DNA of 64,000 nt from positions 2,337,486 through 2,401,485 of the forward strand of contig NZ_CP118753.2 of the NCBI RefSeq assembly GCF_034480035.2, written 5' to 3'. Source of the stretch: Methanosphaera sp. ISO3-F5 (GTDB lineage Archaea; Methanobacteriota; Methanobacteria; Methanobacteriales; Methanobacteriaceae). The notes beneath the pieces are model-generated. The model searched no databases. It saw only the letters and a program-made list of their open reading frames with translations, and was not told where the DNA came from. Shown in pieces: positions 17,870-56,400 of the stretch (its first letter is position 1; the number at the start of each line of letters is the position of its first letter). Both the position numbers and the translations under genes were made by a program.

Positions 17870-19321
17870 TTATAGTATGGCAAATGTTTTTGATGGTATG
17901 TATATTATGTTATCCTTTTTTTCTATTTTTTGTGATGTATTTGATATTATTATCCCATATTCTGCATTATATGTGTCTATTGCTGTTGTAATCTGTTTTT
18001 TATCCTTTTTTCCTTTTCCTACTTCTATTGGTATTGCATTATTGAATTCTTCTTTTATTATGAAATCTACATTGATTTTATTTGAATCATAGAATAAATT
18101 ATAATATCCATAACTTTTTTCGCATATTTCATGTAGTTTTGATGCAGTCATGTTTTCTAATAATATTCCTTCATATTTTTCTTTGTTTCTATAGTTATGC
18201 CCAGTTTTTTTAGATAATACATGTTTGATACTACTGGTTGCAAAATAGTATTTCCACGGTTTCCTACTTTTTCTAGAAGAGTTACCATATGCTTCACAAT
18301 GAAAAATTAGATGAGTGGTTTCCAGTACTTTTAATATGTTTTCAACATTTGTTGCTGATGTTTTTAAATATTTGGATATTTTATTGTAGGATACATCTGC
18401 TGATTCCTGTAATGAAAGGTATCTTAATATTCTATTGGCATTTATCTGATTTTCTAATGTGAAATTTTTAATTTGAATCATGTCCGTGTTGATTACTTTA
18501 TTTGTCATTTCTTCAATTTTATTGATTATTAGGTTATTGTCTTCTTCATTATAGTATGCGGGGAAACCGCCATATAAGAGGTAATCGTACCAGTCATTTC
18601 CAGAGTAGTTTTGATTTTTCAGTATTGTGTTTGTTCCTTTTTCTTCAATTTTTTTGGCTTCTTCTATTTTAGCATTAAATAATAACTCTTTTAATGCTTT
18701 TTTTGTTTGATCAATTTCTATTCCATATTTTAGTTTTAAGTGGTGTGCATATGTTAATGGTGGAATAGCTTGTTTACATGTTCTTCTGGCTGTATCTGCA
18801 TTATATTCTAAGTTTAGAGCTGATGAACCTGTAAATATCATGAATATGTTTGGTGTTTTATCATATAATATTTTTCCTGCTATTGCCCAATTTTTATCAT
18901 ATTGTGCTTCGTCTATTAATAAGTAAATTTTCTTGTTTAGAGTACTTATACTCGTATTATGGAAATTGTTTATGTATTGTTCAATTAAGTTAACTATGTT
19001 GCAGTCTGTTATATAATTTAGGTTTTCAGTAGAAAAATATAATATGTTATGATGGGGTATGTTTTTTGTATAAAATAAATATTCATATATTTGATATAGG
19101 AGTGTGGTCTTCCCTACTCCTCTAATCCCAGGCATTACTATAAGTCGGTTTATGCTTTCTTTTTCTTGAAATTGGTCAATGTATTTGATTATTTGATAAT
19201 ATTCGTTTCGGTGGGTAAACTTATGGTTATTGTTTTTGGTTAATCTTTTAACATATTCGGGCATTATATTTATTTGTTCTTCTAGAAAATTATTTAATAT
19301 GTCCTCTTTATTTTTTGTCAT
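17870..19321 (-). CDS. AAA-type ATPase with PD-(D/E)XK-like C-terminal domain (copy B)
   Basis: About 483 residues, same architecture as copy A: P-loop GIRGVGKT at residues 65-72, Walker B YLLIDEAQYD near 140, the motif ADTARRTCKQAIPPL, and a C-terminal part FYDSNKINVDFIIKEE...IPIEVGKGKKDKKQ. Again E-V-G replaces E-x-K at the expected nuclease site, with Lys one position later. The frame opens at TTG 19336, but ATG 19321 gives MTKNKEDIL and is preceded by GAGAG. Upstream (19367-19441) are several AAATATTTG/AAATATTTT palindromic runs, less regular than the repeats before the other ATPases. Function unknown. Confidence 0.7.
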   Translation of the reverse strand: MTKNKEDILNNFLEEQINIMPEYVKRLTKNNNHKFTHRNEYYQIIKYIDQFQEKESINRLIVMPGIRGVGKTTLLYQIYEYLFYTKNIPHHNILYFSTENLNYITDCNIVNLIEQYINNFHNTSISTLNKKIYLLIDEAQYDKNWAIAGKILYDKTPNIFMIFTGSSALNLEYNADTARRTCKQAIPPLTYAHHLKLKYGIEIDQTKKALKELLFNAKIEEAKKIEEKGTNTILKNQNYSGNDWYDYLLYGGFPAYYNEEDNNLIINKIEEMTNKVINTDMIQIKNFTLENQINANRILRYLSLQESADVSYNKISKYLKTSATNVENILKVLETTHLIFHCEAYGNSSRKSRKPWKYYFATSSIKHVLSKKTGHNYRNKEKYEGILLENMTASKLHEICEKSYGYYNLFYDSNKINVDFIIKEEFNNAIPIEVGKGKKDKKQITTAIDTYNAEYGIIISNTSQKIEKKDNIIYIPSKTFAIL

Positions 19322-19553
19322 ATGTATTTCTCTCAATAATGTTTTCTTAAAAAGAATAATTTATAAAAATATTTGTTTAAAACAATATTTTTTTTACAAA
19401 AATATTTTTATAAAATTCATACTATGATACACAAATATTTGTGTAAAGTATTATATATAATTTATAATCAGGATGTCCATCAAAACTTATTTCCTCATCA
19501 AATAAGTTCAAATTTATTATATGATACTTTTATAATTGTACTTAATTACATAT

Positions 19554-20840
19554 TCATTTTAAAACACCAATTGGTATGACTTTAACACCATCTTCTCGTG
19601 TATATGCCATTTGTCCCCCTGTGATAACTGCTAAAAAACTAGGTTCTTCCAATTCTATTTTATTATTTTTAACACTCTCTTTAATTAATCTTTTTAATTT
19701 TAATAAGTTTTGTGCACCCTTATCTATTTCTTTATTTCCTAATTTGAATTCTATCAGAGCATATCTGCCATCATTTAAATATATAACTGCATCAGCTTCA
19801 AGTCCACCATCATCATTATAGTATAATATTTCCCCACCTACTTTGCTAGAATATACTAATAAGTCCCGTATGCATAGATTTTCAAATATGAATCCAAATG
19901 TTTCAAAGTCTTTTAATAATTTTTCAGGTGTTAGATTAAGACTTGCTACGGCTATTGATGGATCAATAAATTCTTTTTTGTATGATTTTCGGATAGTGTT
20001 AACTGACCTGATATTTGGAGACCATGCAGGAATATTTTGTATAACATATAATTTTTCTAGTGCATCAATGTATGAATTATATGTAGGTAATGAAATGTCA
20101 CCGTATTCTGTTTTAACATCTTTCATAAGTGTTTTCTTAGTTGCTAATGTTGATATATTTCGAGAATATGATTTTAGGATTGCTTTTACTCTTTGTGGGC
20201 TACGTTTAATTCCATCAATTTCTGACACGTCAGTGTTACAGATTATGTCAATATAATCAGATACTATTGCTAGTTGGTATTTTTTATTTTTTTTTGTTAA
20301 TGATTCCGGCCATCCACCTCGACAAGTTGCAAATATTAATTCCTTAATTGTTAAATTTGACGTGATTCCATCTATGTTTAATGTATTATTATTAAATAAA
20401 TCCATTAAGGATATTTTTCCGGTTGATTCTCCACTTTCGTACAAACTCATAGGGCGCATGACTATTCTTTTAATTCTACCTGCTCCGGAATGCATTATTT
20501 TATTTTCATCTACTATTGTTGAACCAGTCAATATGTACAGGCCATCTTCATCAGATTCATCAACTAAATATCTGACTGTGTCCCATAGTTCTGGTGCCAT
20601 TTGCCATTCATCTATTAATAATGGTTTTTCATCATTTAATAATTCTATTGGATTTGTGTCTGCAAGTTTTAAATATGATTTACCATATATTGGATGTTGT
20701 AATTCTCTTATGCTTTTTGATTGTTGTTTTGCTGTTGTGGTTTTACCGCACCATTTTGGACCAGTGATTAATACTGCACCCATATATTCTAATGATTCTT
20801 TTAGTTCTTGATCAGTGTACCTGGGCAGATATTTTTTCAT
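19554..20840 (-). CDS. AAA_14/DUF4143 ATPase with PD-(D/E)XK-like domain (copy C)
   Basis: 428 residues. N-terminal AAA_14 ATPase: P-loop GPKWCGKT at residues 27-34, Walker B PLLIDEWQ near 80, sensor segment ILTGSTIV and the arginine region GAGRIKRIVMRPMSLYESGES typical of the family. A winged-helix-like middle follows. The C-terminal DUF4143 domain has GGLEADAVIYLNDGRYALIEFKLG, a complete D...E-x-K nuclease-fold core. The family is widespread and variable in bacteria and archaea and has no settled role. The copy at 20971-22257 has the same length and is similar throughout. A 23-bp-period array lies directly upstream. Confidence 0.8.
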   Translation of the reverse strand: MKKYLPRYTDQELKESLEYMGAVLITGPKWCGKTTTAKQQSKSIRELQHPIYGKSYLKLADTNPIELLNDEKPLLIDEWQMAPELWDTVRYLVDESDEDGLYILTGSTIVDENKIMHSGAGRIKRIVMRPMSLYESGESTGKISLMDLFNNNTLNIDGITSNLTIKELIFATCRGGWPESLTKKNKKYQLAIVSDYIDIICNTDVSEIDGIKRSPQRVKAILKSYSRNISTLATKKTLMKDVKTEYGDISLPTYNSYIDALEKLYVIQNIPAWSPNIRSVNTIRKSYKKEFIDPSIAVASLNLTPEKLLKDFETFGFIFENLCIRDLLVYSSKVGGEILYYNDDGGLEADAVIYLNDGRYALIEFKLGNKEIDKGAQNLLKLKRLIKESVKNNKIELEEPSFLAVITGGQMAYTREDGVKVIPIGVLK

Positions 20841-20848
20841 AATATCAC

Positions 20849-20915
20849 ATCTATTTCGTACTTTTCATCCTATTTATTTTATACTTTTCACCACATTTAT
20901 TTTATACTTTTCATC
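20849..20915. repeat. Three tandem 23-bp repeats upstream of copy C
   Basis: The core TACTTTTCA recurs at 20859, 20882 and 20905, exactly 23 bp apart, each preceded by TATTT(TA/CG). Units 2 and 3 are almost identical and unit 1 has changes. On the gene's strand each unit reads GAAAAGTATAAAATA, close to an archaeal BRE/TATA pattern, so repeated promoter elements are one explanation. The array ends about 10 bp before the copy C start. Confidence 0.8.
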
Positions 20916-20970
20916 AAGAATATATATTCATCATAGAAAGTAGGTCGAAGATGAAAGAAGGAAAGATGTT

Positions 20971-22257
20971 TCAATCTTTCAAACAAGCAATTGGAATTAC
21001 TTTAACCCCATCCTTACGAGTATATGCAAAACCACTACCTGTTATTACAGCTAAAAAACTTGGTTCAGGGATATGTGTTTCTCCTTTTTCTTTTTTATCA
21101 ATGATTATTGACTTTAATTTAAGTAAATTCTTTGCACCTTTATCAATTTCCCTAGTTCCAAGTTTGAATTCAATCAAAGCATAGTTTCCATCATCTAACT
21201 CCAAAACACAATCAGCTTCTAAACCATATTTATCATTATAATAACGAACAACCCCATCCAAACTAGTGGAATAAACTCTTAAATCCCTTACACATAATGT
21301 TTCAAATATAAATCCTAATGTTTCAAAGTCATTTAATAACTTTTCAGGACTTAAATTTAAGCTTGCCACAGCAATTGATGGATCTATAAATTCTTTTTTA
21401 TGTGTTTTTCTCATTGCTGAAGCAGAACGGATATTGGGAGTCCATGCTTCAACATTATAAATCAAGAATATTTTTTTAAATGCCTCCAAATATCTGTAAT
21501 ATGTTTTTTCATCAATAGATCGGAAATTAGCTGTTATATCCTTAAGAATTGTTTTATCTGTAGCTAAAGTTGATATGTTCCTAGCATAAGATTTTAATAT
21601 TTGTTTTGCTATATTTGAATCCCTTTTAACCCCATCTACCCGTGAAATATCACTATTACATATGACATCAATATACGATTTTGCTACACGCAATTTACTT
21701 TTTCTTTTATTTTTAGTTGTGATTATAGGCCAACCTCCACGACAAATAGCAAATATTAATTCTTCAAATGATAAATTAGAAGTTATACCATCAATATTTA
21801 AATCCGGGTTATGGAATAGGTCCTTTAAGGATATTAAACCATTTGATTCTCTGCTTTCATATAAACTCATCGGCATCATTAACATCCTATGAATTCTACC
21901 TGCTCCTGAATGTTGTATTTCTTCTTCATTAACAACTGTTGAACCGGTTAGAATATAATTACCCATTGTTCCCAAATCATCAACACTATTGCGTACCATA
22001 TCCCAAATCATAGGAATTACTTGCCATTCATCAATCAATCTTGGTTTGTCTCCATCAAGCAGTTTTTGGGGATTAAATTCTGCAATTTGATAATAATATT
22101 CTTTTCGATTTGACTCAAGTTTTATGATACTTTTAGCTTGTTGTTTGGCAGATGTTGTTTTTCCACACCATTTTGGACCAACAATTAAAATAGCACCCAT
22201 ATCTTCAAGATACTCCTCTATTTCTTTATCAATAATTCTTGGATAATATTCATTCAA
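20971..22257 (-). CDS. AAA_14/DUF4143 ATPase with PD-(D/E)XK-like domain (copy D)
   Basis: 428 residues, tandem paralogue of copy C. P-loop GPKWCGKT at 27-34, PRLIDEWQ near 80, GAGRIHRMLMMPMSLYESRES, and C-terminal YGLEADCVLELDDGNYALIEFKLG with intact D...E-x-K. Divergence from copy C is spread over the whole length, suggesting an old duplication kept under selection. Both genes have their own upstream repeat array rather than forming an operon (130-bp gap). The ATG has GGGGTGT about 12 bases upstream. Confidence 0.8.
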   Translation of the reverse strand: MNEYYPRIIDKEIEEYLEDMGAILIVGPKWCGKTTSAKQQAKSIIKLESNRKEYYYQIAEFNPQKLLDGDKPRLIDEWQVIPMIWDMVRNSVDDLGTMGNYILTGSTVVNEEEIQHSGAGRIHRMLMMPMSLYESRESNGLISLKDLFHNPDLNIDGITSNLSFEELIFAICRGGWPIITTKNKRKSKLRVAKSYIDVICNSDISRVDGVKRDSNIAKQILKSYARNISTLATDKTILKDITANFRSIDEKTYYRYLEAFKKIFLIYNVEAWTPNIRSASAMRKTHKKEFIDPSIAVASLNLSPEKLLNDFETLGFIFETLCVRDLRVYSTSLDGVVRYYNDKYGLEADCVLELDDGNYALIEFKLGTREIDKGAKNLLKLKSIIIDKKEKGETHIPEPSFLAVITGSGFAYTRKDGVKVIPIACLKD

Positions 22258-22438: not shown

Positions 22439-22615
22439 AATCCCAAAATTTTACCAAAAACAATCCCAAAATTTTACCAAAAACAATCCCAAAATTTTAC
22501 CAAAAACAATCCCAAAATTTTACCAAAAACAATCCCAAAATTTTACCAAAAACAATCCCAAAATTTTACCAAAAACAATCCCAAAATTTTACCAAAAACA
22601 ATCCCAAAATTTTAC
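22439..22615. repeat. Eight tandem 23-bp repeats upstream of copy D
   Basis: Units start at 22439, 22462, 22485, 22508, 22531, 22554, 22577 and 22600. Seven are identical over the whole 23 bp and the last is cut after AATCCCAAAATTTTAC. Each holds a central AAAATTTT palindrome between CCC and ACC. The gene's-strand form TTTTTGGTAAAATTTT shares TTTTTGGT with the twin repeats before copy A. The array is about 180 bp from the copy D start. There are no spacers, so it is not CRISPR. Confidence 0.9.
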
Positions 22616-22884
22616 TTGAAACAGTATCCCAATATATAAAAAACAATTTTAGAATAAACAAAACAATCAGACATTAACATCAACAGGAGAACATTGACAA
22701 AAAACTAATAATTAGTTTAATGAAAGTAAATCAATAATTGAACTGTATGCTTTAATTATATCCAATATTCTAGTAATAAAAAACTATGAATAGAGAATAT
22801 TTAGATATAATATGAAAAGAGATTGAGTTATAGGAGATAATTATAAACTTCATCATAAATATGACTTAAACTAATTTGTATTTT

Positions 22885-22910
22885 TTTCGTTATAGTACAG
22901 TATAACGAAA
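22885..22910. promoter_or_regulatory. Perfect 10-bp-arm inverted repeat
   Basis: TTTCGTTATA (22885-22894), six bases, then TATAACGAAA (22901-22910). It lies about 130 bp before the first structured-RNA element and could be an operator or a hairpin; its transcription is unknown. Confidence 0.6.
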
Positions 22911-23088
22911 CACAATTTTTAAAAAAATAATTAAAAAAATAAAAAATATTATAATAAATAACGAGAATAATAGAAAAAAAAGTAATACTTAAATAATAAA
23001 TTTAATAAAAGTAATAGTAGTGATTATTTAAATCATTATCCTGACAGGATTTTACATAGCTGGAAGTAATAGATTGTTAGAACTAAAC

Positions 23089-23128
23089 TTGGAGAACGTA
23101 AAACTAACTTACACTCCAATTTTTTTTT
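23089..23128 (+). terminator. Attenuator-like hairpin and T-run in element copy 1
   Basis: TTGGAG (23089-23094) pairs with CTCCAA (23114-23119), with GTAA/TTAC inside, and nine T follow at once. It lies about 140 bp before the peptide start and is repeated identically in copy 2 at 23689-23728. Confidence 0.55.
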
Positions 23129-23265
23129 ATAAAAATATTTCTAAATGGTGTCTATACCATGAAAAAAGAGCATTGCTATGCCACTATAAAAATGACCCAG
23201 CCGTAAAAATGCTTAATGGAAGCTTATTTTCTTTCTTCCATTTCCTGTCCAAGGAGGTGAATAAT

Positions 23266-23373
23266 ATGTTCAAAGAAATAGTACTAATATTAATAGTACT
23301 AAATCTTGGAGCATTTGAGTTCTTCTTAAGACTCATTTGTTTTAAGATAAACATGTTTTCATTCCAACTCTAA
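23266..23373 (+). CDS. 35-residue hydrophobic peptide, type I toxin-like (copy 1)
   Basis: ATG 8 bases after a strong AAGGAGGTGA site. The peptide begins MFKEIVLILIVLNLGAFEFF and continues with a hydrophobic stretch ending in a short basic/polar tail: one membrane helix. Size, single helix, strong ribosome site, long structured leader, a 3' hairpin and tandem duplication all resemble type I toxins (Fst/TxpA/holin-like), but sequence relationship to those families is not shown. The in-frame upstream extension to 99 residues is not conserved in copy 2 and is rejected. Confidence 0.65.
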   Translation: MFKEIVLILIVLNLGAFEFFLRLICFKINMFSFQL

Positions 23374-23637
23374 TAAAATATGAAAACATTTAACAGTGGA
23401 AAGCAAAAAGCTCATATTGGCTAGATGCCACATATACCACGTTACATAATAATATGTAACCTCTGGTATATAAACCTTTAACTATTTTTAAAACAAGAGG
23501 AAAATATGATTAACCCTATTTATTTAGAGAAAAATAAACTTATTTATTTAATAATCTACCAAAAAAATTTTACTCTAATAATATTATGAAAAATAGAAAT
23601 TTAATAAAAACTAATAGTAGTGATTAATTAAATCATC

Positions 23638-24069
23638 ATCCTGACAGGATTTTACATAACTGGAAGTAGTAAATTGTTAGAACTAAACTTGGAGAACGTA
23701 AAACTAACTTACACTCCAATTTTTTTTTATAAAAATATTTCTAAATGGTGTCTATACCATGAAAAAAGAGCATTGCTATGCCACTATAAAAATGACCCAG
23801 CCGTAAAAATGCTTAATGGAAGCTTATTTTCTTTCTTCCATTTCCTGTCCAAGGAGGTGAAAATATGTTCAAAGAAATAGTACTACTATCAATAGTACTA
23901 AATCTTGGAGCATTTGAGTTCTTCTTAAGACTCATCTGTTTTAAGATCAACATGTTTTCATCACATTTCTAAACCAATATGAAAACATTTAACAGTGAAA
24001 AGCAAAAAGCTCATACGGGCCAATTGCCATATACCCTGTCACATAATAATATGTAACCTCTGGTATATA
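23638..24069 (+). ncRNA. Structured RNA element with peptide gene, copy 2
   Basis: Second copy, offset 600 bp from the first. The leader hairpins and the T-run are the same; from about 23684 to 23860 the two copies are essentially identical. The 3' hairpin (about 24029-24068) keeps ATATACC and TGGTATAT but has a C:A mismatch in the inner stem. It ends about 300 bp before argG; the remaining stretch to 24364 is AT-rich and no other gene is seen. Confidence 0.6.
23865..23972 (+). CDS. 35-residue hydrophobic peptide, type I toxin-like (copy 2)
   Basis: Same length as copy 1 and the same start MFKEIV; then LLSIVLNLGAFEFF, with the C-terminus FSSHF in place of FSFQL. Several differences from copy 1 are silent (for example ATT to ATC and ATA to ATC), which supports real coding. 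A 2-base deletion between GGAGGTGA and ATG puts the upstream frame out of register while keeping ribosome-site spacing (7 bases) acceptable. Role unknown; see copy 1. Confidence 0.65.
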   Translation: MFKEIVLLSIVLNLGAFEFFLRLICFKINMFSSHF

Positions 24070-24364
24070 AACCTTTAACTATTTTTAAAAACAAGCAAAA
24101 AACATGATTAACCATAATTATTATAAGTAATATAACAAAAATTTATCCTAATGAAATTATATGAAAAATTTCCAGTTTACATCATATAAGATTATACTCT
24201 CTTCTTATCAGCACCATTTATGGGAATAGTTCCAAATCAGAATTCATATATAATCATTAAACTTATTAAAAAATAACAATATAATATATATTAAGAATAA
24301 ATCCTAATTTAATAAATTAATAATAAAAAATTTTAATTAAAACAATAAAACCAGGAAAGGTGAA

Positions 24365-41429: not shown

Positions 41430-44400
41430 TTAACTTGTTGTAATATCAGTTGTTGTTTCCCTAGCTGCATGATATGATTGTCTTTCACCAGTAACTATCA
41501 TTACTGAATGAACTTTTTCGCCAGGGGACAATTTTAATCCACTTAAATTAACTTTACCATTTACTATGTTGAAGTATTTGGCTTTACCATTTTCCTGGTA
41601 AGTTCTTCCATTAATTTTTATGGCTATTGTACTGTTTCCAACCAGATTATTACCTTTGTAGTCTGTCATTGTTGCTTTTACGCTTAACTTTGTTCCTTTT
41701 ACGGTTGTTTTTACAAAGTTAATTGTTACATCACTTTTATCTACGTGGAATACTGTTTTGTTTCTAGTGTCTGGGTAGAATGATGGGTTATCATATACTG
41801 CTTCTAGGCTGTAGTGTCTGATACTTCCATTTTTGTAGACGCTAGCTGTTCCAGGTTCTACGTAGTAAGTGTATGTTGCAACATTGTTTATTACATCTAC
41901 ATGTATTTGTGAACCGCTTTCATCCTTGATTGTGTTACCGTTTACTTTGAATATCACTGTTCCATCTGTTGATAGGCTTGTTTTATTCTTAGCGTTGTGG
42001 GTAACATCTTTTAGGTATGCTTTGAAGATAATGTTATTATCTTGTTTTCCTAGTGTTGGAACGGTTGTCACAGTTAGTGTAGCTCTGCGTTTTTGTATTT
42101 GTGCAGTTACCACACTTGACGTGCTTGCCTCGTATTTATAACTACCACTGTATGATGCTGTGAGGTTTTTAACGTTGCGTAGGTAAAGATCTGCTGTGAG
42201 TGTCACGGTTACTTTACCATTCACTACTTTGAATTTAAGTGGTGCTGCTTTGCTGTCGAACCTGTAGTCTTCTCTTAATGTTTTACCATTTAGTTTGAAT
42301 ACTAGGTTTCCTCCAGTTATGTTTTTACCGTTTGTATCGGTTACATGTGCAGTTAGGGTAATCTTTTCTCCAACAATTCCACTTATTTCGTCAACTTTTA
42401 CTTTTGTGTTGTATTTGCTGACTACTTGTGTTGTATTGAGCAATACTTTGTTGTAAGTATCGTTTCCAGAGTATGTTACAGTTACTGGGTTTGTTCCTGC
42501 TCTTACGTCTGGTATTGCTGCAGTGTATTTACCGTTACTGTCGGTTTTTACTACTTTGGTAGTGTTTGCATATTTTACAGTAACTTCTGCGTTTGGTATT
42601 GGTTTGCCATTGGAATCTTTTAAGGTTCCTGTGACTGTTGTTGTATCATCAACTTTTGCTGGTGTTAACTTATTGGTTGTGATGGTTGTATTTACTTTAG
42701 GCACGTCTACCGTGAATGATTTTGTGCTTGGTGTGTAATTGTCGCCATCATATTTTACTTTATAAGTTTGTGTACCAGGAGTTGTTGGAACTGTTACGTT
42801 AACTTTTCCATCTTTGACAGGAGCTTTAATAGTTTTGCCGTCAGGAGTGGTTATTGTTACTGTTCCTGTAGATACAGGTTTACCATTTTCATCTGTGATG
42901 TTTGCAACTATGTTACTGTTACCTGCATCAACTTTTGGCATTGCAACATCAACGACAACATCAACAGTGTCTACATTAAACTTCTTAGCATTATTAATCA
43001 GGTAGTGTTCACCATCACCTGCATATGTTACTGTGACATTGTTTACGCCGGCAGTTGTTGTTGGATTGTTCAATACATAAACACCTTTACTGTTAGTTGT
43101 GGTGTTATATTCTTTTCCATTAACTGTTACTTTGATTGGCTTGTTACTTACTGGTTTATTGTTTTCATCCAGCAAAGTTCCAGTAATGTTAACGTTTCCT
43201 ACTTTTGCCGGACTTGATACATTTAATGTTAATATTGTGTCAAGTTTATCAACTAATAATACTCCAGTATTGTCTGTTGCCCTGTACGTTTCGTTACCAG
43301 CATAACTTACTATTATATTATTAATTCCAACTTTTGTAGGTGTTGTTGTTACTGAATATTTACCATTCTTATCTGTTGTAGCATTTAATGTTTTATCTCC
43401 TACTTTAACAGTTACTTTTGCGTTTGGAACTGCTTTTCCATATTGATCCACTAATATACCATTGATTGTGGATGGTAATCCTAGTTTAATGGTACTTGGT
43501 GTTTCAAATGTTATAGTAGTTATTAATGGACTTACTGTGAAGTTGTACTTGTATTCAACTTTATGTACTTCATCTTCAAATGAAACTGTTATATTGTTGG
43601 TTCCAGTTGAATTTGTAGGATATGAGTATGAATATGTTCCGTTTTCATCAGTTTTTACCGGTACGGTTTCACCATTTACTGTTACATTAATTTCAGTATT
43701 TGCTATTGGTCTATTGTTTTCATCAACTACTTTACCACTGACATTGAATGTTTCTCCGATTACTACTGGTTTAATAGGATCAGGAATAACTGTAATGTTA
43801 TGTTTAGGTATTTGTGTTTCTTCGATTTTGCTTGATGAATTTCCATAAACGGTTGTTCCATCATAAACAACATCCAAGTTGTATGTTTTACCAGCTTCTG
43901 TTGGTACTGATATTGTAACTGTACCATTTATGACTCTGCCGGTACCAATAACTTTATCACCATCTTTAATTTCAACGGTTCCTTCAGTTACTGGTTTACC
44001 TTCACTATCAGTTACTTTTACATCTACTAAGCTTGTTCCAGGTTTTGGAGTAATTTCTGCAACAACATTTGTTTCTTCCTTAGATACGTTGAATGTTGTT
44101 TTGTTACTTGTTCCGATTAGGTTATTGTCTCCAATAAATGTTACGGTTACATTGTTTACTCCGGTTAATCCGGTTAAGTAGTTATATGAGTATTCTCCGT
44201 TTTCATCAGTGGTTGTTGTGTAGTTTTTACCGTTTACTGTGATTATTACATCAACATCACTTACTTTTAATCCAAATTCATCAGTTAAAGTTCCGTTTAT
44301 TTTTACTATATCACCTGTTGTGACACTAGTTAATGTTGGAACTGTGATGTTAGTATGGACTGGTTTTACGTTGAATGTTGTGTTCATAGTTAATGGTGCA

Positions 44401-47400
44401 TATGTTTCATCACCTGCAAAGTTAACCACTACTAATTTATCACCTGTAGTGATAGGATTATATGTTACACTGTAATTACCCTTATCTCCTGTTTTTACTT
44501 TTGCTATTTCTATACCGTTTACGGTTATAGTTATGTTAGCATTAGTGATTGGATTATTGTTTTCATCGACAAGTAATCCTGTGATATTTGTACTGTTGTG
44601 TACAATAGTATCATTCACAGTTTCTAATGATAATTTTGCATCATACTTAGGAACGTCTAATATTATTGTTTTATTAAATGATGTGCTGTTAGTTGTACCA
44701 TTGTATACTATTGTAATGTTATGTGGTCCAGGTGGTAGTGTAATATTTGTTGTTAGGTTACCGTTTTCGTCAATGGTTCCATTACCTATTACAGTACCGT
44801 TTTCATCTGTGATGTTTACAAATCCGCCAGGAATTGCATTACCACCTTCATCGGTAACATTAACTGTAATATTTACTTTACCATTTTCGATGTCACTAAC
44901 GTTAACTTCCACATGACTGCTGTGTTCTTCTACTATGAATTTACCTGTATTATTGGATTCAATGTATACATCTGTTCCATTGTAGAATACTTTAACTTTG
45001 TAGTCTCCAACTGTTGTACCAGTAACATTTAGTGTGTAGAAACCGTTACTATCTGTTGTAGCGGTGTACTTAGTATCATCACCTTCAACTGTGATGTTTA
45101 TCACTGCATCTTTGATAGGGTTTCCTCTGCCATCAACGAGTGTACCGTTAATTGTAGTGTTACTTCCTACCTTAATTGGACTAATTGTACTTACAGTTAA
45201 TCCTGTGAACATCTTATCAACTATGAAGTTAGTTGTTCTGTTTACTGCAGTGTAATTATCATTACCAGCAAACTCTACAGTTACATTGTTAAGACCAACA
45301 ACACTACCAGTTACATTATAACTGTAATAACCTTCCTCGGTTGTTGCGTTATATACGTTTACACCATTGACTGTTATAGTTACGTTTACATCGCTGATAG
45401 CTTCACCAGTTTCATCAACAAGACGACCACTAATAGTAGTGTTATTTCCTACAACTATAGGAGTATCGGCTGTAACATTTATTACACTGAATAACTTGTC
45501 TACTGTGAAGTTGTACTTGTATTCGAGTGGTTCGTATCCTTCTCCAGTGTAGGATACTGTTACGTTGTTGATGCCTGTGGTGTTTGTTGTGTATGGAAGT
45601 TCGTATTTTCCGTTTTCATCTGTTGTAACCGGTTTTGTTTCACCATTAACTGTTATGTTAATTTGTGTGTTTGCTAGTGGTTCGTTGTTTTCGTTTACAA
45701 TTGTACCAGTTATTTCTGTTTCTGTTCCAAGTTTTGTTGGAACGGTAGCATCTGGTATTACACTGAGTATGTGTTCTGGTATTGTTATGTTGAATTTGTA
45801 TGATGATTCTTCGTATACGCTTGTCTGGTTGTATACTATTGTGAAGTTGTATTCTCGGCCAGCTTCCAGATCAGATACTGGTATGTATGCTGTTCCGTTG
45901 ATTACTTGACCAATAGTTATTACTTCACCTTCATCATTTCTTACTTCAACAGGACCATAGGTCACATTTAATCCACTGATTGTCTCGGTAACATTTACTT
46001 CAATAATATTAGCACCAACACGAGGACTGGATATATTAGCCCTTGTAGTAGTGTTAATACGTGTTACATTGAAACTAGTACTGTTAACTGTTCCAATAAT
46101 GTTATTGTCACCAATAAAGGTCACGGTAACATTATTTACGCCAGCAGTACCTGTTGTGTAATTGTAACTGTAATTACCATACTCATCAGTAGTAGCAGTA
46201 TAGTTTTTACCATTTACTGTTATGATTACTTCAACATTGCTCATGTTAAATCCGAGTTCATCTACAAGAGTACCGTTAATGTTCACAACACCACCAATAG
46301 TAATGTTATCAATATCTGATACTGTGATGTTAGTATGAACAGGACCTACATTGAATGTTTTGTTTACACTTAATGGAGCGTATGTATCATCACCAGCAAA
46401 GTTAACAATTACCTGTTTTTCACCAACTGTTGTAGCATTATATGTTACACTGTAGTTACCATCTTCACCAGTAATTACTTTAGCTATTTCTAATCCGTCA
46501 ACGGTTATTGTTATGTTAGCATTAGTGATTGGATTATTGTTTTCATCTACAAGTAATCCTGTGATATTTGTACTGTTGTGTACAATTGTATTGTTGATGT
46601 CTTCTAATGATAATTTTGCATCATATTTTGGAACATCTAATCTGATTGTTTTATTATATGATGTGCTGTTAGTTGTACCATTGTATACTATTGTAATGTT
46701 ATGTGGTCCAGGTGGTAGTGTAATATTTGTTGTTAGGTTACCGTTTTCGTCAATGGTTCCATTTCCTATTACGTTACCGTTTTCATCTGTGATGTTTACA
46801 AATCCGCCAGGAATTGCATTACCACCTTCATCGGTAACATTAACTGTAATATTTACTTTACCATTTTCGATGTCACTAACGTTAACTTCTACATTTGTGC
46901 TGTGTTCTTCTACTATGAATTTACCTGTATTATTGGATTCAATGTATACTTCGCTTCCATTGTAGAATACTTTGACTTTGTAGTCTCCTACTGTTGTACC
47001 AGTAACGTTTAGTGTGTAGTAACCATCATTGTCTGTTGTAGCATTGTACTTATCACTATCTCCGACTGTAATGTTTATCACAGCATCAGTTATACCGTTT
47101 CCTCTGCCATCAACGAGACGACCACTAATTGTTGTATTACTGCCCACTTTAACAGGACTGACAGTTGTTACATTCACTGCAGTGAACATCTTATCAACAT
47201 AGTAATATGTTGTAGTATTTACTGCTGTGTAAGTACTGTTTCCACTATAAACAACAGTTACATTGTTAAGTCCTAGAGTATCAGTCACAACACTTAAAGT
47301 ATAATTACCTTCACTATCAGTAGTCACGGTATCATTTAGTTCTCCATTTATCCAAACTTCAACACTTGCACCACTAATACTATTACCTTTTTCATCTTTT

Positions 47401-50400
47401 AACACACCAGTAATCGTGGTAGTATTATTGATTACTATAGGACTTGTAGCATTAGCAGTTATTTGTGTAAATATTGGACTTACAGTGAAATTAAATGAAA
47501 CACTGCTACCATTATAGGTATCGTTACCATCATAAACGATTGTTACATTATTTATACCAGTAATGTTTGTAGTGTTAGTGTAAGTAAACTTACCATCAAC
47601 ATCAACAGGAACTGTTGCATTTATTCCATTAATACTAATATTCACAGTTGCAGGACCTACAGGATTATTGAATTGATCCACAAGAGTACCATTAACTATG
47701 ATAGTATCATTAATTTTAACAGCATTAACTGCTCCTGGAATAATTGTAGTGTTAAGTTTTGGTATGTTTTTGGTTGTGGTTGTTGTTGAGTTTTCGTAAA
47801 TATCTGTTCCATCGTATTTGACTGTGAATGTGTATTCTTTTCCAGCCTCTGTTGGTACGGATATTATTGCTGTACCATTAACTATTTTACCAGTTGCTAT
47901 GGTTACTGTTCCATCTGTTACTGTTATTGGACCGTCTGTTACGTTCTGTCCAAATTCGTCTGTAACATTTACTGTGATTAAACTTATACCAGCAACTGTG
48001 GTGATTACTTCCGCAGTTGTGGTTGTTTTAATTCTTGTTACGTTGAAAGTTGATGTGTTTGTAAATGCACTTATTGTATTGTTTCCTTCGAATGTTACGG
48101 TTATGTTGTTTTCTCCTACAACGTGTGCTGTGAGTGTGATGTTGTATCCTCCAGTACTGTTTGTTGTAGTTGTGTAATTTCTACCGTTTACTGTTAGGAT
48201 AATTTCAGCATCTGCTACTATGTTATTGAATTCATCGGTTACTGTACCGTTTATGTTGGTAGTGTTTCCTATTGTGATGTTTTCAATTTCTGTGATTGTT
48301 GCATTTGCTGTTAATTGTCTTGCTTCGAAGGTTTTGTTAACTTCTACTGCTTCGTAGGTTGCATTTCCTTCGTATACTACCCGTACAGTGTTTAGAACTG
48401 TGGTTGTTGCATTGTATTCATAATTATATGTTCCATCAGTTACTGTTGCATTTGTTACAAACTTGTTGTTAACATATATTGATACGATAACATTGTCTAA
48501 GTTGTTACCATCAGTATCTTTTAATGTACCTGTAATGTTAGTTGTGTTACGTACTATTGTGTTGTTAATATCTTCAAGTGTGAGGTTAATTCCATATTTT
48601 GGTACATTCAGTACTATTGTTGTATTGTATGGTGTGCTGTTTGTTGTACCGTTGTATGAAATTGTGATGTTATGTGGTCCAGGTGGTAGTGTAATATTTG
48701 TTGTTAGGTTACCGTTTTCGTCAATGGTTCCATTACCAATTACAGTACCGTTTTCATCTGTGATGTTTACAAATCCACCAGGAATTGCATTACCACTCTC
48801 ATCAGTAACATTAACTGTTATGTTAACTTTACCATTCACAATATCAGATACGTTAATTGCTACATTACTACTGTGTTCTTCTACTATGAATTTACCTGTA
48901 TTATTGGATTCAATGTATACATCTGTTCCATTGTAGAATACTTTGACTTTGTAGTCTCCAACTGTTGTACCAGTAACATTTAGTGTGTAGTAACCATCAT
49001 TGTCTGTTGTAGCAGTATACTTAGTATCATCACCTTCAACTGTGATGTTTACCACTGCATCTTTGATAGGGTTTCCTCTGCCATCAACGAGACGACCACT
49101 AATAGTAGTGTTAGTTCCTACTTTTATTGGACTAATAGTTGTTACATTCACTGCTGTGAACATCTTATCAACATAGTAATTGGTTGTTGTGTTAACAGGT
49201 GTGTAAGTATCATTACCTTTGTAGATAACTGTTACATTATTTAGTCCTAGAGTATCAGTCACAACACTTAAAGTATAATTACCTTCACTATCAGTAGTCA
49301 CGGTATCATTTAGTTCTCCATTTATCCAAACTTCAACACTTGCACCACTAATACTATTACCTTTTTCATCTTTTAACACACCAGTAATCGTGGTAGTATT
49401 ATTGATTACTATAGGACTTGTAGCATTAGCAGTTATTTGTGTAAATATTGGACTTACAGTGAAATTAAATGAAACACTGCTACCATTATAGGTATCGTTA
49501 CCATCATAAACGATTGTTACATTATTTATACCAGTAATGTTTGTAGTGTTAGTGTAAGTAAACTTACCATCAACATCAACAGGAACTGTTGCATTTATTC
49601 CATTAATACTAATATTCACAGTTGCAGGACCTACAGGATTATTGAATTGATCCACAAGAGTACCATTAACTATGATAGTATCATTAATTTTAACAGCACT
49701 AACTGCTTCAGGAATAATTGTAGTGTTAATTTTAGGTATTGTTACTGTGTATATTGTACTGTTAGCTGAGTACTTGGTTATTCCTTCATATGTTATGTTT
49801 AGTGCGTGTTCTCCAGGGTTTAGTACTATTGCTGTTACTAATTCTCCGTTAATAATGATTCCATTACCAAGTTCTTTGTCACCTTCTTTGATAGTGACTT
49901 TTCCTGTGGTTACATTATTATTCTTTTCATCAGTAACGTTGATAGTTATGAGATTGTTTCCTGGGCGTGGGTTTGTAATATTTGCAGTTATATTTGTTGG
50001 ATGTGCTGTTACATTAAACGTGGTACTGTTAGCTGTACTGTTAAATGTGTTGTTTCCAGCATAGTATACTGTAATATTATTTTCGCCTACAACACTTGTT
50101 GTGTATTCAATGTAATAGTTTCCATTATCATCAGTAGTGTTTGTATAGTTTACACCATTAATTTCTATGGTTACTGGTGCGTTTGGAATTATGATGTCAA
50201 ATTCATCAACGAGTGTTCCATTAATTATTACAGGATAGTCAACGGTTATGTTTTCTATGTTTGTAATATTAATGTTTGAGATGATCTTGTTAACTGTGAA
50301 GTTTCCTGTTGCTTCTATTCTGGAATGTGTACTGTTTCCTGCAAAGACTACGAGCACTTCTTTGAATCCAGAGGTTGTTGCATTGTATTGACAGGAATAG

Positions 50401-53400
50401 TTACCATCTTCACCAGTGGTTACATTAGCTATTGCTATTCCATCAACATATATTGTCAAATTTTCTCCAATGATAGGATTATGTTCTGCATCTTCATAGT
50501 AGAGGAATCCTGTTATGTTTGTGGAGTTTCTGACTTTTGTATCGTTTATGTCATTTATTGTGATGTTTAAGTTGTATAATGGAACTTCAAGTGTTACAAC
50601 GGTTCTTGAAGATTTGTATAATTCTTCTGTTCCATTGTAGACTATTATGATGTCCTGTACTCCAGGTTCTAGTGGAACACTTATTTCCACTGTACCATTT
50701 TCTCCAACTGTACCATTACCTATTGGTTCACCATCTTCATCATAATAAACAAGTACTGTTCCTTCTGGAATTGGGTCACCGTTTTCATCAGTTACATTTA
50801 CAAGTATTGTAGCATTACCTGCTTTAACACTTGTTACATTAGTTGTGATGAACACATCAAGTTTATCCACTGTGAATGTCACATAGTCATCCACTGGTTC
50901 TTGTGAATAGTTTCCTGCATAACTGAGTGTTATGTTGTTTAATCCAAGTTGTGTTGAATTGTATTCGAAACTGAAACGTCCACGATTATCTGTTTTAACA
51001 GTTTTTGTTGTGGATTCGTTACCGTTTAATGTTACATTAAATTCTGTGTTAGCTAGTCCACGTCTTGATTCATCTATCAAGTAACCTATTACTGTAGTGT
51101 TTTGTCCAAGTTCCACATTTGTTGCTTCGAGTTGATCGAAGTGTGTGTATATTTTTATGACATTTACTTGGTAAGTGTTATTTGATGAGTAGTACTTGTC
51201 TGTACCATTGAATCTGAATGTGATGTTCTGTAATCCTACTTCATTAGCAGTAACGGTATAGTTCACATCACCTAATCCACGTGTACTGGTATTTAATTTT
51301 TCAATTCCGTTCATGTATACTGTGATGATTTGACGATCTAATACATTACCATATTCATCAAATAGTATTCCCTTTACAAGTATTTTATCTCCATAGTTAA
51401 CTGGAGATATTCCTGTGATGTTAATGTGTGTGATGACTTTTTCCACTTTTATTTGATAGGTGTCAAATGATTTCAGATATTTGTTGTCACCAGTGAAATT
51501 TACTGTAATGTTGTAAATTCCATCTTTTGCTTGAGTGAAATTAAATTCGTAACTACCATCATAGTCTGTAGTATCATGAGCTACTACTACTCCATTTATT
51601 GTTAGGTTAACTATTTTGTTTCCTAGTTTGTTTCCAAATTCATCCTCGAGTATTCCAGTTATAGTGGTTGTGTCACCGACTTTGATTAGTCTGTCAGCAC
51701 TTACTGAAATATCAGTGACATATGGTTTTACAATAAATGTTGCAGTATCATGACTACCCCAGTATACATTATTTGTTTCAAATACAACCCTTACATCATT
51801 TCTTCCTAAAACACTAGTAGTGTAGTTATAATAGTAGTAACCTTCTTCATTGGTTCGTAGGTTGATTGCTTCGGCTGCATTGTTTATATACATTTGTACT
51901 GTTGCATTAACTATTGGAGTACCGTTATGTAATACAAGGTATCCTCCTAGTTGAGTTACGTTTCCTACTAAAACAGGAGTTTCAGATGTAACATTTAGCA
52001 TTGAATCTAATCTTAGTACTTGTATTATGTCCTTAGTATATGAGTTTAAGTAGAATAATGATCCTTTGAATTCAGCGGTAACATTTTTTGTTCCATATGT
52101 TGTGTAAAATACTGGTATGCTTATTGTACCGTTTTCATCAGTGATGAATGTGTCTTGATGTTCATGGTCATTAGCTATTATTGATTCGTTAGCTAATGGG
52201 TTTCCATCAATATCCTTTAAAGTTATGTTAATTGTTACATTATCATAAACATGTATTGGTGATGGTACTGTTATTGTTGTAATTGTTCTTTGTTTTACTG
52301 TTATTTGATGAGTATTACTTGATGAGTTATAATAATCATCCCCATCAAATTTTACGGTTATATTGTTTAATGCAACCTTATCGAAGGATACAAATAATCT
52401 TACCGTACCGTTACTGTCTGTTGTTAGATTAGATTCTGTGTAATCTGTTCCATTTATTGTGATTATTAATGTTTTATTTGCTAATTGTTCTCCTTTTTCA
52501 TCAGATAAAGAGAATAATATGCTTTCTTCTGTTCCAACTGTTGTTCTTTCAATAGTTGATATTGTTACTGTTGTGTTTTTGAAGGAAGTGATTCTTATTG
52601 TTCCGGTTTCTGCTTGACTTTCATAGAATACATTATTAGTATTATATAGTGCTCGAATATTGTATCTACCATAATCTGCTTCAAGAACTTCTAACTTATC
52701 TGTAACAAGTTCATATTTACCATTAACTACTGTTACATTACCCAGTTCTATTCTTTCACGAAGACCTGTGGTAAAATTAGTATATTCTGCAGTTAATGTC
52801 ACATTTCCAATGTTTATTGACGGATAACCTTCACTTGTTACGTTTCCTACAATAACTGTTTTTGTATCAAGGTTTTCTGTTACAGCTATACTTGTAACTG
52901 TTGCAGCACGGAATACTGTGAATGTTGCCGTAGCCGATGAGGCTGCATGATGTTCATCACCTGCATAACTTACTGATACCTGTACAGTAGTTCGTTCAGG
53001 CCATGTCCAAGGAATCTCATAGTATACTTCTCCATTGATAACATTTAGTTCTAGAGGTTCATGTTCCCCTACTGTTAAATTAACCTTTCCAGTTAATGGA
53101 GTGTTTCCGTTTTCTTCAAGGTTAATTCGTACAACACTTGTCCTGTTAACATATGTGTTATTAGGACTTACTGCAACCCAAGTAGTATTTTTACCTAATA
53201 ATAGATGAACAGGTAATGAAGAGTTTCTGTACTTGTAATCTTCAAGACAGTATGCTGTTATAGTCACATTATCATTTGTATTTATGGTGACATTAACAGT
53301 ATAAGATGCTAGGTCATCAGTTTTAACAACAATAGACTCTATTACCGTACCATTTTTAATTGTGGTTATGTTAATAGTCTTATTTTTAATTAAATTATGA

Positions 53401-56400
53401 TCTATGTCATATAATGTGAATGTAATATTTACATCCCCACCACCAGAAGGTAAAGCAGTAGTATTACTGTGGAAGTGTGTAGGATATCTTTCAATAAAGA
53501 GTTGTCCACTTACTTCTGCAGGTATTGCATATTGATCACTTGATTCATGCACTGATGCTACTACTTGTATATGCCCATTTTCATAAGCTTTGAATAAGTA
53601 GGTGATATTACCGTTTTCATCTGGTACTTTTACAATTCCTGTTTTGTTTGTTACATTTAATGTTATGTTGAATACTCTGAGTGTACTGTTGTTTCTTGAA
53701 TCATACAAGGTTACATTTATGTATCCTTCATCATCAGGATGTGAGACATTGTTTGGTAGTGTTAATACCATGTGAGTTGGGATTTTTATTATTTCTATTG
53801 TCCCTGTGGTATTAGAGTTAACATGAGAACTGTTACCTTCAAATGATGCATTCATTGGATAATTACCATAAATAGGGAAACTGATATTTTGTATAACTAC
53901 GTATCCATTTTCACCAGTGTTTCTAGTGTATTTTGTACCATTGATGTAAACTGTTATGTTTGCATTCTTTAGCAGAGTGTTATTCTCGATTTCATATAAT
54001 GAAACTGTGACATTTATTTTGTCATCAACATATGTCTGATTTATAGGTGAAATAACAATTCTTGTTGGTTTACCCATATGTACCTCAGTTTTAACATTCA
54101 TGTCCTGATAATGATGACTTAATGATTGATAAACGGCTGTTGCATTAGTTAATGATTTTTTAATTGAAGGTCTGTATATTCTTACACTAGCATTACCATC
54201 AATAACTCGTCCTTCACCAATACGATTGAACTCTTCATCGTATAAGTAGACTGTACCATTTCTTACTGTGTCATTATAAATGTTTCTTAAATTAACAGTA
54301 ACATTAACAAAATATTCCAGTACCTCAAGTGGCACATCTATTAAAACAGGAATATCTATTGTATCATTAAGATAATTGTCAATATAAGTGTTTCCTGTGA
54401 TACTTTGTGGTTGAACCTCACCTAGAAGCATGTCTCTTGTAAGATCAGTGTTTGAATCAAATAAGTTATTAACAATTGTTGCAGAAACAACACTGTTAAG
54501 TATAACATATCCTGTTGGACTTGTTACTTTATTATTTGATACTGTATTATCAGTTAGTGTTAAAACTCCTAGATTTAGTATAACTGATTTTGTTCCAATG
54601 TTTGAATCGATTGTTGATTCAGTTATGGTTACATTACCACGATTTTCAAGAACTGCCCCGTCAGGTGCATTGTTTAATGTGAATTCATCATTATTTGCTG
54701 TGAAGTTTGCATCTGCAACATTGTATAACACTCCACCACTAGCGGTTGCTGTATCCTTAGTATATATGTTACCAGTGGAATTAATGTTTCCCCTGTTATA
54801 GAATACCCCACCATAGTTTGCAGTGTTATCAGTGTATGTGTCACTTCCAAGAACATTTACTGTTGCTCCCTGAGTCACATACATCACTCCACCATCATTT
54901 GATGCCCGGTTATGTCCATATGTACTGCCAGTAGTGTTTACTTCAGCATTTCCATCAAGATATAATACTCCACCCTCTGTAGCATTGTTTTGGTTAAACA
55001 TTGATGATGAAATATTTGCCTTGGAATCGTTTGACACATATATTGCTCCACCCTGTGTTGCTTTATTTGATGAGAAAGTATCATGTTGTGAGTTATATAT
55101 TACTTCATCAAGATATATTGCTCCACCCTGTGTAGCATTGTTTTGTGTGAAAGTTACTGTTGAAGTATTTAAGTCTGATTTAGTATAAATAGCAGCCCCT
55201 TTACTTGCAGTGTTGTTAGTGTATTGACCACTGGATAAGGATACTGTTACTCCTTCATCAATATATAATGCACCATTATCTGCATTATTTTTAATGAACT
55301 GGTTTCCATTAGTGATTAACTGGCTGCCTTTTTGTGCATATATTGCACTACCATTTGTAGCATTACCATTTTTATAGATACCGTTTGTAGAATTAAGAAC
55401 TACTGTATCATTCAGGTATATTGCTCCACCAAGTGTTGCCTTGTTTGAATCAAATGTTGTACTTGTTTTAACTGTTACAGTATTGTTTGCTTGTGCATAT
55501 ATTGCACCACCCATACTTGCATTGTTATTTATGAACTCGTCAGCACTTGTGGTAATATTACTCTGATTACCCAAGTATACTGCTCCTCCAAGAATTGCAC
55601 TGTTATTCACGTATTTTACATCACGTGATGAAGTTATTACAACATTTTCTTCGGTAAATATTGCTCCACCATTTTGGCCTGCAGTATTTCCATCAACTTC
55701 TATTTGTTGAATAACTATGTTCCTATCGGAACAGGCGTATATTGCACCACCATTCTCCAAAGCAGTATTGTTGTAGTAATTGTTTCCTCTTCCACTAAAG
55801 GTACCATTATCTATTAATGCTCCACCATTTGTAGCACTGTTTGCTATGAAAGTGTTGGAATTGGCTGATACTGTTGCATTGTTATATAATACACCAGCAC
55901 TGGTTGCATTATTATTTTTGAAAATATTGCCTTCTGATGTAATCATACCATTATTGAATACTACTCCACCAATTGTAGCATTATTTTCTTCAAAAGTACT
56001 GTCCCTTGCAGTTAAAGTACCATTATTGTATATTGCACCCCCTATAGGTGCTGTGTTATTAATATTAGTACCTGATCTTTTTATGATTGTACCATTTTCA
56101 GAGTTGAATGTGGCACCACCATATAATGTTGCAGTATTGTTAATTAACTTATTGTTAATACTCTCTATAGTACCATTTAGGTTGTAGATTGCTCCACCAA
56201 TCTGTGCGGTGTTGTTTAGGTAGATTTCATCTTCTGTATCAACCATACCTGCTTCAACATATAATACTCCACCATATTCTAGTGCTTTGTTGTCTGTATA
56301 ATTTGATCCTTCTGATTCAATTGCCCTATTTGTCTGGTTTACATAGAATACTCCACCACGAGTAGCCGTGTTATTATATGAATGGTCATAATTTGTGTCA

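Follow-up and report, generated by a model that had tools for sequence, protein, structure and literature searches.

According to a 2025 survey, which names no archaeal case, type I toxin-antitoxin systems had been found in Proteobacteria, Firmicutes and Tenericutes alone until its cyanobacterial example was added (PMC12390103). A CRISPR-regulated RNA toxin-antitoxin system, CreTA, is known from archaea (PMC8501985). With RNA-controlled toxic peptides known from few bacterial phyla, the Methanosphaera family described here is a concrete, testable candidate that methanogens of gut and rumen carry in many natural variants. The family also makes a clear case of RNA structure being selected within a coding region, through amino-acid replacements.

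Here ‘the window’ refers to the whole 64,000-nucleotide stretch of Methanosphaera DNA that was analysed, in whose positions coordinates are given unless stated otherwise. The twin elements that a sequence-only reading had noticed in it belong to a real, apparently undescribed Methanosphaera family that combines an RNA and a peptide.

Twin copies in the window

A 500-nt unit occurs twice in the window (22991-23490 and 23591-24090). The two copies are ~94% identical overall and lie ~600 bp apart, with identities of 96% in the leader, 90% in the ORF and 95% in the 3′ part. Each comprises a probable promoter, a structured leader of ~245 nt and, behind a strong ribosome site, a hydrophobic ORF of 35 codons, as well as 3′ hairpins (Table 1). 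The parts listed in the sequence-only reading, namely the T-run hairpin, further hairpins, strong ribosome site, 35-codon hydrophobic ORF and 3′ hairpin, are present in both copies. The spacing it gave as exactly 600 bp holds for the leader; small indels bring it down to 599 in the ORF and 597 in the 3′ part. The leader palindrome ATCCTGACAGGAT is found only in the window's species and is no feature of the family, as relatives read ATCCTAAAAGATGC or similar, and it is probably incidental.

Table 1 Features of the two copies and their upstream region
Feature	Position	Strand	Remark
24-bp palindrome TTCGTTATAGTACAGTATAACGAA (TTCGTTATA-N6-TATAACGAA)	22886-22909	.	5′ of copy 1
Other exact sites of the 24-bp palindrome	G000 C1:179499, 379561, 720098; C2:54837, 70024		
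Copy 1 TATA-like box CTTAAATA	22988-22995	+	~31 nt 5′ of P1
Copy 1 P1, 5′ hairpin	23018-23038, stem 23018-23023 / 23033-23038	+	compensatory changes
Leader palindrome ATCCTGACAGGAT	~23038-23050		confined to window's species
Copy 1 P3 hairpin (23089-23119), then 9 T	23089-23128	+	terminator-like attenuator candidate
Copy 1 P4 hairpin, short loop	23145-23160	+	compensatory changes
Copy 1 P5, small hairpin AGC-ATT-GCT	23169-23177	+	95% of cells paired, only one-sided changes
Copy 1 P6 hairpin, directly 5′ of ribosome site	23215-23242	+	both-sided changes in four pairs
Copy 1 Shine-Dalgarno (SD) GGAGGTGA	23253-23260	+	
Copy 1 ORF, 35 codons, MFKEIVLILIVLNLGAFEFFLRLICFKINMFSFQL	23266-23373	+	
Copy 1 P7 within ORF, TAGTACTA repeat	23281-23302	+	outer pair differs among other species (G-C, A-U or U-A)
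Copy 1 P8 within ORF	23317-23334	+	pairing kept as E/L changes to V/Y
Copy 1 P9 around stop codon, TGTTTTCAT / ATGAAAACA	23354-23388	+	invariant across all copies
Copy 1 P10, 3′ hairpin	23433-23470	+	likely transcript end
Candidate antisense-RNA TATA box GGTTTATATACC	23465-23476	-	overlaps P10 arm
Copy 2 P1 hairpin	23618-23638	+	
Copy 2 P3 hairpin and T-run (9 T)	23689-23728	+	
Copy 2 P4-P6	23745-23842	+	
Copy 2 SD GGAGGTGA	23853-23860	+	
Copy 2 ORF, 35 codons, MFKEIVLLSIVLNLGAFEFFLRLICFKINMFSSHF	23865-23972	+	
Copy 2 P9 around stop codon	23953-23987	+	
Copy 2 P10, 3′ hairpin	24030-24067	+	

Distribution and copy number

Homologues were searched for with two covariance models, R1 of the 117 nt 5′ of the ORF and R2 of the 3′ part. 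R1 gave 22 places, spread over 8 of the 20 Methanosphaera genomes, R2 gave 26 in the same 8, and neither found a homologue in 131 other Methanobacteriales genomes. The covariance-model search of Methanobacteriales that had been suggested at the outset thus does yield homologues. When 61 genomes were searched at the DNA level, strong matches were confined to Methanosphaera; weak BLAST matches in other genera were short and AT-rich, and were dismissed as homologues. No match to the element turned up in collections of phages and plasmids or in viral contigs.

Of the six R1 matches in the window's genome, contig 1 carries two and the 174-kb contig 2 the other four. Copies commonly form tandem arrays of 2-3 at a distance of ~640 nt, so the tandem arrangement first noticed in the window is frequent among homologues. 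A second genome of this species carries just one copy, again at the argG locus, from which we conclude that copy number varies between strains.

RNA structure and compensatory changes

In nine folds the RNAs came out 3.3-6.7 SD lower than their dinucleotide shuffles; five of these folds used only the portion from ~54 nt 5′ of the ribosome site onward. In the leader helices P4-P6, 96% of cells are paired and 7 pairs have changed on both sides. The covariation score of P4-P6 was equalled by none of 500 shuffles, a control that ignores relatedness, and the signal was lost when pairing partners were slid by 1-3 columns, a control that allows for it. P1 covaries too, with compensatory changes among homologous copies. 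P3 has diverged in sequence, yet a stable hairpin with a T-rich stretch was obtained in all eight full leaders folded, and this terminator-like hairpin suggests attenuation. Between P5 and P6 there is an almost invariant, unpaired CCAC..AAA.ATGACCCAG.

Pairing is maintained inside the ORF as well. Where the P8 codons read GTA/TAC (V, Y) instead of GAG/CTC (E, L), pairing survives two amino-acid changes, and the outer pair of P7 varies with species (Table 1). On the other hand, P9 is invariant and P10 barely covaries, so the covariation test says little for these two stems. Compensatory changes in the stems of homologues, which had been set beforehand as a test, were therefore found in leader and ORF stems. 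Because the RNAs fold below dinucleotide shuffles and copies of other species carry compensatory changes, the RNA structure and the conserved copies are more than chance.

The SD is predicted to be mostly paired in 6/9 folds and partly open in 2/9 (that of G003 and that of one contig-2 copy). We also considered that a short leader RNA pairs with the rest of the mRNA. This was rejected, as pairing was no better than in shuffles for 6/8 copies and the site is not conserved.

Open reading frame and peptide

An ORF of 32-36 codons is present in 19 of the 23 copies with a scorable start region; one intact ORF, in G001, has a shifted C-terminus. The reading frame is open in 13/13 distinct intact copies, compared with 0 and 5 for frames 1 and 2, and the observed substitutions, if placed at random, interrupt it in 63-86% of pairwise comparisons. 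Conservation is highest at codon position 2 (permutation p 0.013, and 0.04 when unpaired codons are taken). Judging from the intact frames and this codon pattern, the peptide is probably real. The ORF's dN/dS of ~1, which alone gives no support for selection on the protein and is attributed to RNA constraint acting on synonymous sites, was set aside as uninformative coding evidence.

AlphaFold predicts a single helix at residues 2-34 (mean pLDDT 88), and all intact peptides are hydrophobic by composition, in agreement with the single-helix hydrophobic peptide proposed earlier. In four copies the ORF is broken while the RNA is kept, by a stop at codon 2, by truncation to 19 or 26 residues, or by a frameshift after 17. 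Some of these may be errors of draft assemblies, notably the frameshift, which concerns one T in a short T-run.

The CreTA toxin is reportedly a mini-ORF of rare codons with a strong ribosome site. A CreT-like rare-codon trap that sequesters tRNA was ruled out for the present ORF, as its codons are common in the genome (per thousand, ATA 50, GTA 32, CTA 17 and AGA 17).

Promoter and transcript ends

A TATA-like box lies ~31 nt 5′ of the first hairpin in most full-length copies, and because this distance is near-constant, the RNA probably begins at P1. In the window, the TATA-like box of copy 2 is weak, and one contig-2 copy lacks the spacing. Most relatives have T-rich sequence 3′ of P10 (mean T 0.50, A 0.30), but the window copies have A-rich sequence there; a terminator at P10 thus fits the family better than the window's two copies.

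P10 contains a TATA-like sequence (TATATA) on the minus strand in most copies, with no conservation of the flank expected to hold a BRE, and this box may merely reflect pairing of the P10 arms. Because motif discovery in the AT-rich genome of the window yielded no promoter model, the antisense promoter remains a candidate.

The 24-bp palindrome 5′ of copy 1 has six exact genomic sites, all intergenic, versus none for a backwards-pattern control, and related half-sites occur upstream of most copies in other genomes. It is a possible operator. As an operator shared by the genes at the six exact sites it was rejected, since these genes have no common theme.

Genomic surroundings

The copies adjoin AAA_14/DUF4143 ATPases, which PADLOC lists as the defence candidate PDC-S01; their other neighbours are an integrase and PIN-domain proteins accompanied by a small partner gene. 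Ten of the 16 places examined lie within 3 kb of such a gene, compared with 1.8% of random points, in a comparison that is partly circular, as these loci supplied the query proteins, and in which some places belong to one locus. The 2.68-Mb genome as a whole has 16 DUF4143 and 3 PIN matches, yet 2/3 loci in the window's own genome adjoin a DUF4143 gene. This fits a location in variable, defence-rich regions and is no proof of function. The genes adjoining the copies show no consistent pathway.

Several other observations were made along the way. Three AAA_14/DUF4143 ATPase genes follow one another at 17870-22257 (minus strand), and the two nearest the element match PDC-S01. Between the ATPase gene and copy 1, eight 23-bp units AATCCCAAAATTTTACCAAAAAC are arrayed in tandem at 22439-22620; the species' second genome has only about three. 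A single open frame of 5521 codons occupies 41430-57995 (minus strand), possibly encoding an adhesin-like surface protein. In L046 (7219-7548, minus strand), the element's 3′ module is fused in frame with a truncated ORF for a C5 cytosine DNA methylase, by recombination, insertion or chimeric assembly.

Proposed function and alternatives

The family that the sequence-only reading did not recognise has no match in Rfam, Pfam or NCBIfam. Rfam gave nothing credible at curated and permissive thresholds, Pfam only DUF4083 at 16.5 bits (under its cut-off of 25.4), and NCBIfam no match to the peptide. The models that the three databases have for described type I toxins and antitoxins did not match either; those in Pfam presumably include Hok, Ldr, Fst, Ibs and TisB. 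Among the titles and abstracts that literature searches on Methanosphaera small RNAs or toxin-antitoxin systems returned, none describes the element.

We conceived, with moderate confidence, that the element is a type I toxin-like membrane-peptide gene whose folded mRNA restrains translation and whose leader has a terminator-like attenuator. This reading fits best because of the hydrophobic peptide, the very strong ribosome site and the mRNA folded over its coding region, together with the tandem and unstable copy number, the decay specific to the ORF and the restriction to one genus. The DUF4143 and PIN neighbours were likewise counted in its favour. The locus shares traits of type I toxin-antitoxin loci, whose defining toxicity and antitoxin RNA are hypothetical here. 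Counted against it are the dN/dS of ~1, the SD partly open in 2/9 folds and the lack of a match to known-toxin models. More tentatively, these could be the first archaeal type I toxin-like loci, with an ORF-folded mRNA of ~450 nt and a toxic membrane peptide under both attenuation and antisense RNA.

The proposed course is as follows. Each copy would be a free-standing gene with a structured mRNA of ~450 nt that encodes a hydrophobic, single-helix peptide of 32-36 residues, which would insert in the membrane and be harmful if made freely. Transcription would start at the first hairpin, as the TATA box at near-constant distance suggests, and the T-run hairpin ~110 nt into the RNA would stop many transcripts. 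In those that read through, folding is predicted to hamper the very strong ribosome site, unequally among copies; the site would then be opened by processing or by a ligand, or once a repressor is lost. The antitoxin may be an antisense RNA, whose start could lie in the 3′ hairpin.

Alternatively, the product could be a small, non-toxic membrane peptide, such as a modulator of stress or of a transporter, with the long structured leader as attenuator or sensor and no antitoxin needed. A terminator-like P3 in every full leader folded, the maintained frame, and the unpaired stretch between P5 and P6, as a putative binding site would show, are all consistent with this. We nevertheless consider it unlikely, since patchy occurrence, tandem arrays, a copy number that varies between strains and decay of the ORF only are unusual for a housekeeping regulator, and no consistent pathway adjoins the copies.

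In another course, function would reside in the RNA, as a regulatory RNA, and the peptide would be secondary or serve as a sensor of translation. What keeps a peptide-coding regulatory RNA viable is that conservation of the RNA structure equals or exceeds that of the peptide: pairs are kept through amino-acid changes, dN/dS is ~1 and the RNA is kept where the ORF is broken. However, the strong SD, the open frame with its codon periodicity and the hydrophobicity of every intact peptide speak for a translated product, and a short leader RNA has no conserved pairing to the remaining transcript, making this improbable in our view. The weakest alternative, a selfish MITE-like repeat, spread by transposition or recombination and of no use to the host, would account for multiple copies, truncated copies, copies on two contigs and the lone 3′ module at the methylase fragment, but it is very improbable given strong selection on RNA structure and frame and the mainly local tandem arrays. 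In the copies and flanks read, no transposase partner, terminal repeats or target-site duplications were seen. For comparison with an empty site, the species' second genome holds one copy, not none.

Comparison with known systems

The type I toxin-like gene that we prefer can be set against three kinds of described system. Attenuated leaders and riboswitches likewise have a hairpin and T-run 5′ of an ORF (8/8 full leaders here) and conserved unpaired segments. Unlike them, the Methanosphaera element has no Rfam match, its structure also covers the ORF and the 3′ part, and its ORF is tiny and monocistronic. CreTA is similar in being archaeal with a small ORF and a strong ribosome site. Its antitoxin is CRISPR-repeat-like and lies beside cas, whereas no CRISPR or cas stood out among the scanned neighbours of the copies examined, and the Methanosphaera ORF encodes a conserved hydrophobic peptide.

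With the bacterial type I loci (Hok/Sok, Ldr/Rdl, Ibs/Sib, Fst, TxpA/RatA and TisB/IstR-1), the family has in common a peptide of ~35 residues with one hydrophobic helix, a structured mRNA, tandem copies (as in ldr and ibs), narrow distribution and decay of the toxin ORF. It differs in being archaeal, in having an antisense RNA only as a candidate, and in the lack of a Pfam or Rfam sequence match, and also in what it has in addition, namely compensatory structure through the ORF and a terminator-like hairpin in the leader.
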